A DNA stretch of 64,000 nucleotides from Micromonospora globbae (GTDB taxonomy: Bacteria; Actinomycetota; Actinomycetes; Mycobacteriales; Micromonosporaceae). A model generated the notes under the pieces. It was not told where the DNA came from. It saw only the letters and a program-made list of their open reading frames with translations, and did not search any database. Made by a program: the position numbers and the translations under genes. Within the stretch, counting starts at the first letter, position 1. Every line of letters begins with the position of its first letter. Below are positions 11,450 to 60,975 of the stretch, piece by piece. The stretch covers positions 1-64,000 of the forward strand of contig NZ_RAQQ01000005.1 of assembly GCF_003610785.1 (NCBI RefSeq), read 5' to 3'.

Positions 11450-11706
11450 TAAGATGCGTCCGGAAGGCGTAGATGGGGACGAGTACCGTCGCACGCAGCC
11501 AGGAGCGATCCGGGGATGGTGGAAGCCCGGAGGCGTGCGCGGCGGGAAGATCACCCCGGAGCCGTCGGAAGAAAGGCCGCGAGGCCGAGTAGAACCGACC
11601 ACACCCGAAACGAGAGGGCCGGCACACCGGTCAAGGAGGGTGGTACCGCGGGGCCACGGCCTCGTCCCTCCGGCGGAGCTTCAGCACACGCGCCGACGGA
11701 GGAGCG
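11450..11706 (+). promoter_or_regulatory. T-box riboswitch leader of ileS (translational type), with promoter
   Basis: TAAGAT at 11450-11455 is a good -10 element. The leader then has a compact stem I region (GGGGACGAGTACCGTC, later GATGGTGGAAGCC) and the conserved T-box core AGGGTGGTACCGCGG at 11637-11651. The core pairs with the uncharged tRNA acceptor end. Next to it CCCTCCGGCG (11666-11675) can pair with CGCCGACGGAGG (11691-11702), burying the ileS ribosome-binding site GGAGG at 11698-11702. That layout, without a terminator, is the translational T-box known from actinobacterial ileS genes. An ATC at 11508-11510 is a candidate isoleucine specifier (inference). Confidence 0.9.
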
Positions 11707-14700
11707 ATGTACCGCAGCGTACCGACCCAGGTCGATCTGCCCGACCTCGATCACCAGGTCCTGCACTTCTGGCACGCCAACAGCATCTTCAGGCGCAGCC
11801 TGGAGCAGTCCGAGGGCCGGCCGGAGTGGGTCTTCTACGAGGGCCCGCCCACGGCCAACGGCATGCCCGGCGCCCACCACATCGAGGCGCGCGTCTTCAA
11901 GGACGTGTTCCCGCGCTACAAGACGATGAAGGGGTTCCACGTCGCCCGTAAGGCCGGCTGGGACTGCCACGGCCTGCCCGTGGAGCTCGCCGTCGAGCGG
12001 GAACTCGGCTTCTCCGGCAAGCAGGACATCGAGAAGTACGGCATCGCCGAGTTCAACGCCCGGTGCCGGGAGTCGGTGACCCGGCACACCGACGCGTTCG
12101 CCGAGCTGACCGAGCGCATGGGCTACTGGGTCGACATGGACGACGCCTACCGGACCATGGACCCGGAGTACATCGAGTCCGTCTGGTGGTCGTTGAAGCA
12201 GATCTTCGACAAGGGTCTGCTGGTGGAGGACTTCCGGGTCGCGCCGTGGTGCCCGCGCGACGAGACCGGCCTGTCCGACCACGAGCTCGCCCAGGGGTAC
12301 GAGACGGTCGTCGACCCGTCCGTCTTCGTCCGCTTCCCGCTCACCTCCGGGCCCCTGGCCGGCCGCGCCGCCCTCCTGGTCTGGACGACCACCCCGTGGA
12401 CGCTGCCCTCGAACGTCGCCGTGGCCGTGCACCCCGACGTGCGGTACGTGGTCGCGAGCGACGGCAACGAGCAGCTCGTCGTCGCCGAGCCGCTGCTGGC
12501 GTACGCGCTGGGCGACGGCTGGGAGCTGACCGGCGAGTCGTTCAAGGGCAAGGAGCTGGAGCGCTGGACGTACCGGCCGCCGTTCGACCTCGTCGAGGTG
12601 CCCGACGCGCACTTCGTGGTCCTCGCCTCGTACGTGACGACGGACAGCGGCACCGGCCTGGTCCACCAGGCGCCGGCGTTCGGCGCGGACGACCTCGCGA
12701 CCGCCCGGACGTACGGGCTGCCGATGGTGAACCCGGTGCAGTCGAACGGGCGGTTCTCCCCGGAGATCCCGCTGGTGGGCGGGAAGTTCTTCAAGGAGGC
12801 CGACCGGCCCCTCATCGAGGACCTCCAGCTGCGCGGGCTGCTCTTCAAGAACGTCCCGTACGAGCACACCTACCCGCACTGCTGGCGCTGCCACACGGCG
12901 CTCATCTACTACGCCCAGCCGTCCTGGTACGTGCGGACCACCGCCATCCGGGACGCGCTGCTGCGCGAGAACGAGCGCACCACCTGGCACCCCGCCACCG
13001 TCAAGTACGGCCGCTACGGTGACTGGCTGAACAACAACGTCGACTGGGCACTGTCACGGCGGCGCTACTGGGGCACTCCCCTGCCCATCTGGCGCTGCCC
13101 GAACGACCACCTGACCTGCGTCGGCTCGTTGACCGAGCTGAGCGAGCTGACCGGGACGGACGTGACCGGCCTCGACCCGCACCGGCCGTTCATCGACGAG
13201 GTCACCTTCGCCTGCCACTGCGGCGAGACCGCCCGCCGCGTGCCCGAGGTCATCGACGCCTGGTACGACTCGGGCTCCATGCCGTTCGCCCAGTTCGGGT
13301 ACCCGTACCGCAACGCCGACCTGTTCGAGAAGCGCTACCCGGCCCAGTTCATCTCCGAGGCCATCGACCAGACGCGCGGCTGGTTCTACACCCTCATGGC
13401 GGTCGGCACGCTGGTGTTCGACCGGTCGTCGTACGAGAACGTGGTCTGCCTCGGCCACATCCTCGCCGAGGACGGCCGGAAGATGTCCAAGCACCTGGGC
13501 AACATCCTCGAACCCATCCCGCTGATGGACCAGCACGGCGCGGACGCGGTGCGTTGGTTCATGGCCGCGGTCGGTTCCCCGTGGTCGGCCCGGCGGGTCG
13601 GGCACACGGCGCTCCAGGAGGTCGTCCGCAAGATCCTGCTGACCTACTGGAACACCGTCGCCTTCCAGTCCCTCTACGGCCGTACGGCCGGGTGGACCCC
13701 GTCGGCGGCCGACCCGGCGCCGGCCGAGCGGCCGGTGCTGGACCGCTGGCTGCTCTCCGAGCTGAACACCCTGGTCCAGCAGGTCGACGCGGCGATGGCC
13801 GCGTTCGACACGCACCAGGCCGGCCGGCTGCTCGCCGCGTTCATCGACGACATGTCGAACTGGTACGTCCGGCGCAGCCGGCGGCGGTTCTGGCGCGGTG
13901 ACCCGGCGGCGCTCGCCACCCTGCACGAGGCGCTCACCACCGTCACCCTGCTGCTGGCGCCGCTCACGCCGTTCATCACCGAGCGGGTCTGGCAGGACAT
14001 GGTCGTGGTCGTCGACCCGGAGGCGCCGCAGTCGGTGCACCTGGCGCCGTACCCGGTGGCCGACGAGTCGCTGATCGACCCGGCGCTGTCCCGGCAGATG
14101 GCGCTCGCCCGCCGGCTCGTCGAGCTGGGCCGGGCGGCCCGGGCCGACTCCGGCATGAAGGTCCGCCAGCCGCTGTCGCGGGCGCTGGCCTCGGCTCCCG
14201 GCTTCGAGGAGCTGTCGCCGGAGCTGCTCGCCGAGGTGGCCGCCGAGCTCAACGTCGGCGCGGTCGACCCGGTGGGCGGGGCCGGCGGATCGCTCGTCGA
14301 CACCACCGCGAAGGCCAACTTCCGTACGCTCGGCCGGCGGTTCGGCAAGACGGTGCAGCAGGTGGCCAAGGCGATCGCCGCGGCCGACGCCGCCGCCCTC
14401 CGCGACTCGTTGCGGGACACCGGTTCGGCGACCGTCCAGGTGGGCGACGAGACCGTGACGCTCGGCCCGGACGAGGTGGTCGTGACGGAGACCCCGCGGG
14501 AGGGCTGGGCGGTGGCCAGCGAGGCCGGCGCGACGGTGGCGCTGGACCTGCACCTCACGCCGGAGCTGCGCCGCGCCGGTGTGGCGCGGGACGCGATCCG
14601 GCAGATCCAGGAGGCGCGCAAGTCCAGCGGCCTGGAGGTGACCGACCGGATCGAGCTGCGCTACCGCACCGACCGGGAGGAGACCGCGCTGGCGCTGCGC

Positions 14701-14829
14701 GAGCACCGCGACCTCGTCGCCGAGGAGGTGCTGGCCACCGACTGCGCCGAGGGCGAGCCGACCTGGGCCGACCCGCGGGCGTTCACGGAGGAGTCGCTGG
14801 GCCTGACCTTCTGGATCCGCCGGTCCTGA
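11707..14829 (+). CDS. ileS: isoleucyl-tRNA synthetase, type 2, with exchanged HIGH motif (GAHH)
   Basis: The 1040-residue class I synthetase charges tRNA-Ile. The Rossmann fold is split by the CP1 editing domain (TTTPWTLPSN, about residues 235-245, and GTGLVHQAPAFGADD). KMSKH is at residues 592-596, followed by the anticodon-binding domain and a C-terminal extension typical of type 2 (eukaryotic-like) IleRS. The usual HxGH signature is replaced by GAHH at residues 55-58 (context NGMPGAHHIEAR). The same swap of first and third positions is known in type 2 IleRS enzymes that are hyper-resistant to mupirocin. A GGAGG 4 nt before the ATG is sequestered by the T-box leader. The frame is intact and the editing and KMSKS regions look functional, so I regard it as an active enzyme. 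Confidence 0.97.
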   Translation: MYRSVPTQVDLPDLDHQVLHFWHANSIFRRSLEQSEGRPEWVFYEGPPTANGMPGAHHIEARVFKDVFPRYKTMKGFHVARKAGWDCHGLPVELAVERELGFSGKQDIEKYGIAEFNARCRESVTRHTDAFAELTERMGYWVDMDDAYRTMDPEYIESVWWSLKQIFDKGLLVEDFRVAPWCPRDETGLSDHELAQGYETVVDPSVFVRFPLTSGPLAGRAALLVWTTTPWTLPSNVAVAVHPDVRYVVASDGNEQLVVAEPLLAYALGDGWELTGESFKGKELERWTYRPPFDLVEVPDAHFVVLASYVTTDSGTGLVHQAPAFGADDLATARTYGLPMVNPVQSNGRFSPEIPLVGGKFFKEADRPLIEDLQLRGLLFKNVPYEHTYPHCWRCHTALIYYAQPSWYVRTTAIRDALLRENERTTWHPATVKYGRYGDWLNNNVDWALSRRRYWGTPLPIWRCPNDHLTCVGSLTELSELTGTDVTGLDPHRPFIDEVTFACHCGETARRVPEVIDAWYDSGSMPFAQFGYPYRNADLFEKRYPAQFISEAIDQTRGWFYTLMAVGTLVFDRSSYENVVCLGHILAEDGRKMSKHLGNILEPIPLMDQHGADAVRWFMAAVGSPWSARRVGHTALQEVVRKILLTYWNTVAFQSLYGRTAGWTPSAADPAPAERPVLDRWLLSELNTLVQQVDAAMAAFDTHQAGRLLAAFIDDMSNWYVRRSRRRFWRGDPAALATLHEALTTVTLLLAPLTPFITERVWQDMVVVVDPEAPQSVHLAPYPVADESLIDPALSRQMALARRLVELGRAARADSGMKVRQPLSRALASAPGFEELSPELLAEVAAELNVGAVDPVGGAGGSLVDTTAKANFRTLGRRFGKTVQQVAKAIAAADAAALRDSLRDTGSATVQVGDETVTLGPDEVVVTETPREGWAVASEAGATVALDLHLTPELRRAGVARDAIRQIQEARKSSGLEVTDRIELRYRTDREETALALREHRDLVAEEVLATDCAEGEPTWADPRAFTEESLGLTFWIRRS

Positions 14830-59958: not shown

Positions 59959-60975
59959 GTGACGGCACCCCTACGCCGCTGGTTGACACCCGTGGTGGCC
60001 GTGTTCGCCGCGCTGACCGTGCTCGCCGGGCCCCTCCCGGTGTCCGCCGCGCCCAAGCCGGCAACGCCGTCCGGCCACGAGGACGACGATCCACCCCTGC
60101 TCAACGAGGTCATCGAGACGACCAACCGCAACTACAGCGCCGCCAAGGCCAAGCTGGCCAAGTCCGAGAAGCGCCAGCTGGAGCTGAGCCTGGAGGTCAA
60201 GCGGGCCGAGGCCGAGCTGCAGGCGCTGGCGCCGCAGGTCAGCGAGATCGCGGCACAGTCGTACCGCACGGGCCGGATCGGCGCGGTCGCCATGCTCCTG
60301 TCGAGCAACAGCCCCAACACCTTCGTCGAGCGGGCCACCGGCCTCGACGAGCTCAACATGGTGAACGCCCAGAAGCTCGCCCAGATCAACGAGATCAAGC
60401 GCCGCGCCGAGCTGGCCAAGCTCGCGATCGACGCCGAGGTCCGCGAGCAGCAGAAGCAGACCGCCATCATGGCGAAGCAGAAGCGGGAGGCCGAGAAGGC
60501 CCTCGCCCTCGTCGGCGGCAAGGGCTTCACCGGCGGCCTGGTCTCCGCCACCTCGCCGGTGGCCCGGATCGGCCCCGGGCGCACCGCCGACGGCGACTGG
60601 AAGCCCGAGTCCTGCAGCGAGCCCGACCCCACCACCTCGGGGTGCGTCACCCCGCGCACGCTGCACGCGTACAAGGAGGTCAAGCGGGCCGGCTTCAACC
60701 GCTTCGTCGGCTGCTACCGGCCCGGCGGGCCCTGGGAGCACCCGAAGGGCCGGGCCTGCGACTGGTCGCTGCAGAAGAGCGGCTTCTCGCCGTGGCACAA
60801 CAACGACACCCGGATGTACGGCAACAACCTGGCGGCCTTCCTGATCCGCAACGCCGACCGGCTCGGCATCTACTACGTGATCTGGAACCGGCAGATCTGG
60901 TTCCCGGCGACCGGCTGGAAGTCGTACAGCGGGCCGTCCAACCACACCGACCACGTCCACATGTCACTGCTGTAG
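59959..60975 (+). CDS. exported coiled-coil cell-wall peptidase (LAS/M15-like C-terminal domain)
   Basis: The 338-residue protein has a Sec signal peptide (VVAVFAALTVLAGPLPVSAA), a long coiled coil (residues ~50-185, Lys/Glu/Ala heptads with SQSYRTGRIG-like hinge AAQSYRTGRIGAVAML) and a C-terminal domain with HPKGRACDW (His261, Asp268) and DHVHMS (His332, His334). HxxGxAxD plus HxH is the zinc-binding signature of LAS/M15 peptidases, so a peptidoglycan-cleaving activity is inferred. The c-di-AMP riboswitch directly upstream links it to turgor or wall homeostasis, as for Rpf-like enzymes in other actinomycetes. Confidence 0.88.
   Translation: MTAPLRRWLTPVVAVFAALTVLAGPLPVSAAPKPATPSGHEDDDPPLLNEVIETTNRNYSAAKAKLAKSEKRQLELSLEVKRAEAELQALAPQVSEIAAQSYRTGRIGAVAMLLSSNSPNTFVERATGLDELNMVNAQKLAQINEIKRRAELAKLAIDAEVREQQKQTAIMAKQKREAEKALALVGGKGFTGGLVSATSPVARIGPGRTADGDWKPESCSEPDPTTSGCVTPRTLHAYKEVKRAGFNRFVGCYRPGGPWEHPKGRACDWSLQKSGFSPWHNNDTRMYGNNLAAFLIRNADRLGIYYVIWNRQIWFPATGWKSYSGPSNHTDHVHMSLL

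Follow-up and report, generated by a model that had tools for sequence, protein, structure and literature searches.

What makes an isoleucyl-tRNA synthetase (IleRS) gene with an exchanged signature motif the sole one of a bacterial genome? The window, that is the whole stretch of 64,000 nucleotides analysed here, originates from a soil Micromonospora and contains an ileS gene whose first class I signature reads GAHH instead of HxGH. The locus raises the questions of whether this exchange is genuine, whether it predicts resistance to mupirocin, and how the gene came to serve alone. The answer is very likely that the sole ileS of this genome belongs to the actinomycete GxHH/KMSKH clade of type 2 enzymes (IleRS2), the clade of the Streptomyces griseus IleRS, that its product is predicted to be hyper-resistant, and that it has displaced a resident ileS of HYGH type. 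The features of the gene are the following.

11707 to 14829, plus strand: ileS, type 2 isoleucyl-tRNA synthetase, 1040 aa (ORF, NCBIfam, Pfam, structure alignment)
11869 to 11880, plus strand: codons of G55-A56-H57-H58, the swapped HIGH motif (translation, alignment)
13480 to 13494, plus strand: KMSKH, the second class I signature, with His at the fifth place, residues 592-596 (translation)
14236 to 14748, plus strand: C-terminal DUF5915 (PF19302), residues 844-1014 (Pfam)

Translation of ORF 11707-14829 yields 1040 residues with no internal stop. The product, designated P0001, reaches 888.4 bits with the NCBIfam ileS model TIGR00392 and passes its curated cut-off of 621.4. Its Pfam matches are PF00133, PF08264 and PF19302, the last of which is also present in three other IleRS2 scanned. 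P0001 scores 891-912 bits against the IleRS2 chains 1ile and 8c8u-8c9d, 613-689 bits against cytoplasmic and other IleRS chains, 340 bits against S. aureus 1ffy and 363 bits against the 921-residue chain 8c9f, which we take to be the Priestia IleRS1 (PmIleRS1). The assignment to type 2 made in an initial annotation of this DNA is thus borne out, P0001 lying far nearer to IleRS2 than to IleRS1 chains. In the structure alignment, the GAHH motif of P0001 faces HxGH (HVGH) in Thermus 1ile and in 8c8v, and GVHH in 8c8w. Translation and alignment to solved IleRS2 structures therefore agree with the earlier claim that GAHH replaces HxGH at residues 55-58, and the possibility that the true HIGH motif lies elsewhere in P0001 is rejected, since GAHH occupies the HxGH site. 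Judged by the chain scores and by this alignment, the window protein is a type 2 IleRS with a genuinely exchanged motif.

The same motif was read in relatives. All of the best 80 of 588 encoded relatives display GAHH, GTHH or GVHH: whole-protein reading of 78 of them gave 57 GAHH, 19 GTHH and 2 GVHH, and the two that were not read whole contain GAHH (L039) and GTHH (L076). GAHH is also present in three orthologues of 94-95% identity (L098-L100). On these comparisons, GAHH is not a chance reading. The second signature, absent from the initial annotation, reads KMSKH rather than KMSKS in P0001. KMSKH is found in 77 of the 78 relatives read among the best 80 of 588, as well as in every one of 32 Micromonospora GxHH loci; the fifth place is Ser (KMSKS) in L067, L215, L216 and all 25 HYGH loci read. 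A strict coupling of GxHH with KMSKH is rejected, L215 and L216 combining GVHH, and L067 GTHH, with KMSKS. The string KMSKH does not occur in the main text of PMC10485003, whose Fig. 2b, showing both motifs according to its legend, may display it; a search by title found no literature on KMSKH in IleRS.

The gene was described earlier as the only ileS in view, and this observation extends to the entire genome. In the window's own genome, G000 (7.09 Mb, listed as 100% complete), a single TIGR00392 match exceeds the cut-off, the other 13 falling below it, and no second ileS was thus found over that threshold. As the sole IleRS found in G000, the gene is presumably essential. Two of the genes behind the below-cut-off matches encode valyl-tRNA synthetases (ValRS) differing in kind: C9 (L003 808-3405, minus strand) reaches 1443 bits with the NCBIfam exception model alt_ValS (cut-off 900), and C22 (L170) shares 93% identity with the ordinary valS of G045. 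Two ValRS genes are rejected as a peculiarity of G000, ten relatives examined each showing two such matches.

The prediction of mupirocin resistance rests on characterised enzymes. The presence of G/AxHH in type 2 IleRS is reported to raise the Ki for mupirocin by as much as thousand-fold, and motif exchange in the IleRS2 of Deinococcus, Thermus and Priestia ties G/AxHH to hyper-resistance (PMC10485003). The structural reason given in the same report is that the third His replaces the first in catalysis and, by modelling, clashes with mupirocin. In the engineered enzymes of Thermus and Priestia, kcat or KM worsened by as much as 10-fold upon the swap; for the natural ALHH DrIleRS2, the catalytic efficiency is reported to equal that of canonical IleRS2 (PMC10485003). 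As in Deinococcus radiodurans IleRS2 (ALHH) and the engineered GVHH enzymes of Priestia and Thermus, the first and third motif places of P0001 are exchanged in a type 2 background. The X position is Ala in the window and Ala, Thr or Val in the loci read, compared with Ile, Val, Leu, Met or Tyr in the legend of Fig. 1 of PMC10485003. The closest known system is the type 2 IleRS of S. griseus (SgIleRS), for which a mupirocin Ki of 10 mM is reported (PMC4861432). P0001 is 74.6% identical to the S. griseus locus L043, which may not be the assayed protein, and shares its GAHH and KMSKH surroundings, with 28 of 28 residues identical in the neighbourhood of the HIGH motif and 27 of 28 in that of KMSKH; both S. 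griseus loci, L043 and L050, read GAHH. The hyper-resistance proposed from GAHH in the initial annotation is supported by this match together with the reported motif link. Because of the published motif data, the S. griseus Ki and the residue matches, we strongly infer that the window IleRS would be hyper-resistant to mupirocin. By analogy with the GVHH Priestia structures, the catalytic contact that the first His usually makes would pass to His57, at the third motif place, and Gly55 stands in place of that first His. The bulky His57 would clash with mupirocin and tolerate the adenylate; the enzyme should hence stay active, with a Ki in the millimolar range.

The distribution of the motif was assessed in 160 Micromonospora genomes using P0001 and the HYGH-type protein of G045 as queries, a match being an E value printed as 0. 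P0001 retrieved a GxHH-type match in 44 genomes, 26 of them at 78-100% identity (referred to as A type), 16 at 62-66% and 2 at 49-50%. The HYGH query matched 146 genomes, and the remaining 14 are all among the 44. By score, the genus is therefore composed of 116 genomes with HYGH only, 30 with both, 14 with GxHH only, including G000, and 0 with neither. The HYGH-type protein is recognised as an IleRS at 822 bits and is about 41% identical to the GxHH type. It reaches 673-763 bits against IleRS2-like and cytoplasmic chains versus at most 349 against the chains of 917-921 residues, including 1ffy; by these scores the HYGH enzyme is also of type 2. The motif of the GxHH-type genes reads G-A/T/V-H-H in 44 of 44 genomes (9 and 32 loci, then L199, L215 and L216), and the HYGH letters were read in 18 genomes of the genus (16 distinct genes plus those of G266 and G311), all of them HYGH. 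In G266 and G311, which possess HYGH only, that gene is broken over frames, by error or decay. G240, a genome of one contig that carries a HYGH gene as well, has its GxHH ileS (L199) divided between two frames, again through decay or sequencing error. The exchanged motif is common, and what sets G000 apart in its genus is the missing canonical HYGH enzyme, a state found in 14 of 160 genomes.

The region upstream of the window gene contains the elements of a T-box leader.

11461 to 11672, plus strand: T-box leader RF00230, 61.9 bits, E 2.7e-13 (Rfam, below the gathering score of 93)
11550 to 11552, plus strand: AUC specifier codon (Ile), followed by a purine (leader reading)
11639 to 11650, plus strand: t-box core GGTGGTACCGCG (leader reading)
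11661 to 11712, plus strand: hairpin pairing the Shine-Dalgarno stretch before ATG 11707, the predicted sequestrator (fold -23.5 kcal/mol, z -2.68)

The leader is not among the matches of a gathering-level Rfam scan of the window because its score lies below the gathering score. The T-box noted earlier is nevertheless retained, since core, AUC specifier and predicted sequestrator are all present; the fold of the antisequestrator stretch by itself is no more stable than that of shuffled sequences (z -0.47). Such a leader is predicted to release translation, and would thereby raise expression of the gene when uncharged tRNA-Ile accumulates. T-boxes acting on translation before actinobacterial ileS are already known, and a hairpin predicted over the Shine-Dalgarno stretch is ordinary for the group (PMC1262725). 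As in the window, a T-box core and an AUC specifier are located upstream of S. griseus L043 and L050. The Rfam model detected a T-box at 8 of 12 GxHH loci and at 0 of 8 HYGH loci scanned. The t-box core was read upstream of 24 of 25 HYGH loci (22 distinct genes); the T-box as a mark of the GxHH gene alone is rejected on this ground, and the HYGH T-boxes are probably of a kind missed by the Rfam model. Since both ileS types carry the core, a T-box does not indicate control linked to resistance. Among A-type genes, core and specifier are present in 13 of 13 cases in GxHH-only genomes and the core in 9 of 13 in genomes with both ileS types, a small difference between related genomes. In G220, the fourteenth GxHH-only genome, the core is absent before the only copy. 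The core is also absent within 650-700 bases upstream of the motif in L102, L191, L194 and L196, which are of A type and reside in genomes also containing HYGH. Elsewhere in the window, a c-di-AMP riboswitch (RF00379, 59824-59954, plus strand, 85.2 bits, E 2e-18) directly precedes ORF 59959-60975.

The place of the missing enzyme could be located. In G045, valS is followed by two genes, a PhoD-like phosphatase gene, the HYGH ileS and an acyltransferase gene, and in 11 genomes with both types that were examined the HYGH ileS is at this conserved place. Each of the 14 GxHH-only genomes has valS and the acyltransferase gene on one contig and lacks a HYGH ileS between them; the matches to an ileS query in these intervals correspond to valS, at 26-28%, plus a fragment in G284. 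Runs of N faking a missing ileS are rejected, the sole run (L171 1-2501) being outside the interval. The phosphatase is kept in 7 of the 14. The last shared gene and the acyltransferase gene lie about 200 bp apart in G000, 233 in G138, 230 in G179, 220 in G283, 316 in G284, 1283 in G195 and 3936 in G214, and about 3.5 kb in G045; the interval is 643-1675 bp in the seven genomes without the phosphatase. A search for remnants covered the lost HYGH genes. Codons 1010-1048 of ileS remain in G284 (64% identity), and in G267 the 3' end of the HYGH ileS is matched over 86 bases (74%); matches of 32-34 bases in G249, G257, G259 and G319 were left uncounted as remnants. No recognisable piece of the old ileS was found in the gap between the flanking genes of G000. 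In G214, about 3.9 kb of other sequence (L219 9615-13550) stands where the resident ileS would be. The losses were not all neat deletions, as G000 keeps no piece of the gene and the interval of G214 is filled with this other sequence.

Typing by search score of 69 genomes drawn from across the class, among them that of the window, yielded 52 GxHH, 11 HYGH (G369 by a partial match), 6 with neither and 0 with both. The N-termini were fetched for 27 of the 52 GxHH and 10 of the 11 HYGH, along with 3 Micromonosporaceae outside the genus; the motif matches the score type in 30 of 30 GxHH outside the genus, with X mostly Thr, and in 10 of 10 HYGH outside the family. The initial annotation had presented GAHH as an allele of an actinomycete: the exchange itself is upheld by the alignment, and its being special to the organism is not, GxHH being the usual state of its IleRS type. 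Order-mates from another family are of HYGH type by score in 4 of 4 cases. In a sample of 200 Micromonosporaceae, also by score, 62 genomes possess the GxHH type and 179 the HYGH type, 42 of them both, with 20 GxHH only, 137 HYGH only and 1 neither (a genome 69% complete). One of the 20 GxHH-only genomes, G041, has an in-between score of 1.7e-277 with the HYGH query and may hold a partial HYGH gene. Six HYGH-type genes of other family members outside the genus were read and all are HYGH. In the IleRS tree, the locus L084, whose record bears the title 'MAG: Bifidobacterium breve', clusters with MAGs of Actinomycetes; its contig may be misassigned. According to a vertical explanation, the window gene would be the ordinary actinomycete ileS, nothing would have been displaced, and HYGH would be a later arrival in a family ancestrally GxHH. 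This is consistent with the GxHH majority in the class sample and with the occurrence of this type in 62 of 200 Micromonosporaceae, but it is improbable given that HYGH outnumbers GxHH by 146 to 44 among the 160 genomes of the genus, occupies one conserved place near valS whose flanks are kept in GxHH-only genomes, is the type of the four order-mates, and has left a remnant in G284. Moreover, in 20-kb stretches, the flanks of the G000 gene are unlike those of G197 or G134: G000 and G197 match only in leader and gene, and G000 and G134 only in the gene. The DNA flanking the G000 gene is common to G138 and G179 on both sides and to G195 downstream only.

A gain of GxHH followed by loss of HYGH is the direction suggested by the conserved HYGH site, the four order-mates and the G284 remnant. 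The number of events was approached with two trees. An ileS tree was calculated with FastTree from 166 IleRS, omitting duplicate genes (L001, L009, L010, L081) and genes not read whole (L039, L076, L199, L217, L218). The Micromonospora GxHH genes (43 of 44, L199 omitted) fall in eight places of this tree, and L109 and L198 lie within groups of other Micromonosporaceae genera with supports of 96 and 100. Weak and long branches are present; the 49-50% pair L215/L216 is insecurely placed because the program warned of long branches meeting, this pair with the outgroup. The second tree was built from valS DNA of 46 genomes (G288 of the 47 was omitted for its broken valS); valS alone being a weak proxy, the GxHH-only state takes at least 6 changes on it, and G000 is away from G138, G179 and G195. 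Neither tree gives a secure event count, as the ileS branches are weak and the valS tree separates G000 from its nearest ileS relatives; both are read as pointing to several entries and several losses. On the trees, a version predicted to be hyper-resistant thus seems to have taken the place of the essential enzyme more than once. In the proposed sequence of events, the GxHH gene would have entered by transfer within actinomycetes, often carrying its T-box; the two copies would then have coexisted, a state still seen in 30 of 160 genomes; and deletion of the resident HYGH IleRS2 gene near valS would have followed.

The force behind such a displacement may have been an antibiotic. A neutral swap is the main competing explanation: GxHH would be as good as HxGH, and one copy would be lost by chance after transfer without antibiotic pressure. 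The catalytic efficiency of the ALHH DrIleRS2 (PMC10485003) and the frequency of GxHH in the class sample are in keeping with it, and so is the absence of a typical antibiotic assembly-line family among the seven window ORFs scanned near ileS; the repeated entry of the same type, at eight tree places, and the loss of HYGH in 14 genomes, for which the valS tree requires 6 changes or more, speak against it, and its probability appears to be somewhat short of even. The same seven ORFs bear on another explanation, namely that the GxHH ileS was a self-resistance or biosynthetic copy of a natural-product cluster which took over the housekeeping role. Second IleRS genes are so used elsewhere, by mupirocin producers or as SbzA of SB-203208 (PMC9437257), but the ORFs encode an aldo/keto reductase, a YCII protein, a sigma factor and a luciferase-like/FAD protein, the neighbourhoods vary between genomes, and the gene is the sole IleRS of G000; a cluster origin is very improbable. 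A recurrent takeover under way in Micromonosporaceae is proposed tentatively, as a reading that is rather more likely wrong than right: an inhibitor-proof GxHH enzyme led by a T-box would enter as an inducible second copy and displace HYGH under natural IleRS inhibitors, the stages HYGH only, both, GxHH only and remnant being visible side by side.

Several known systems resemble this situation in part. Unlike in S. griseus, the window gene resides in a genus with a resident HYGH IleRS2, and that resident is missing. Bacillaceae with IleRS1 and IleRS2 (cited in PMC10485003) likewise carry two IleRS per genome, whereas both Micromonosporaceae copies are of type 2 by score, differ in the HIGH motif, and the canonical copy is lost in some genomes. 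The staphylococcal plasmid enzymes MupA and MupB are also acquired resistant IleRS, but the gene acquired here is the sole one; membership of P0001 in MupA or MupB is rejected at 769 and 740 bits versus cut-offs of 1900. A literature search by title and abstract start, mostly outside subscription papers, found no paper dealing with two types of IleRS2 in actinomycetes or with a displacement in Micromonospora. The motif and its resistance are already known, and the displacement series in Micromonospora is the new element.

The 2023 description of the motif swap in IleRS2 drew on a tree of 379 prokaryotic IleRS, together with enzymes of distantly related species and their mutants (PMC10485003). 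In Micromonospora, a single genus harbours canonical as well as swapped enzymes, with all three states present. Its close relatives would allow matched tests of the cost and gain of the swap in terms of growth, editing and resistance, and the same series would permit study of how an essential translation enzyme gets replaced. The distribution of the motif also predicts that very high intrinsic resistance to mupirocin-like drugs may be present in many actinomycetes.
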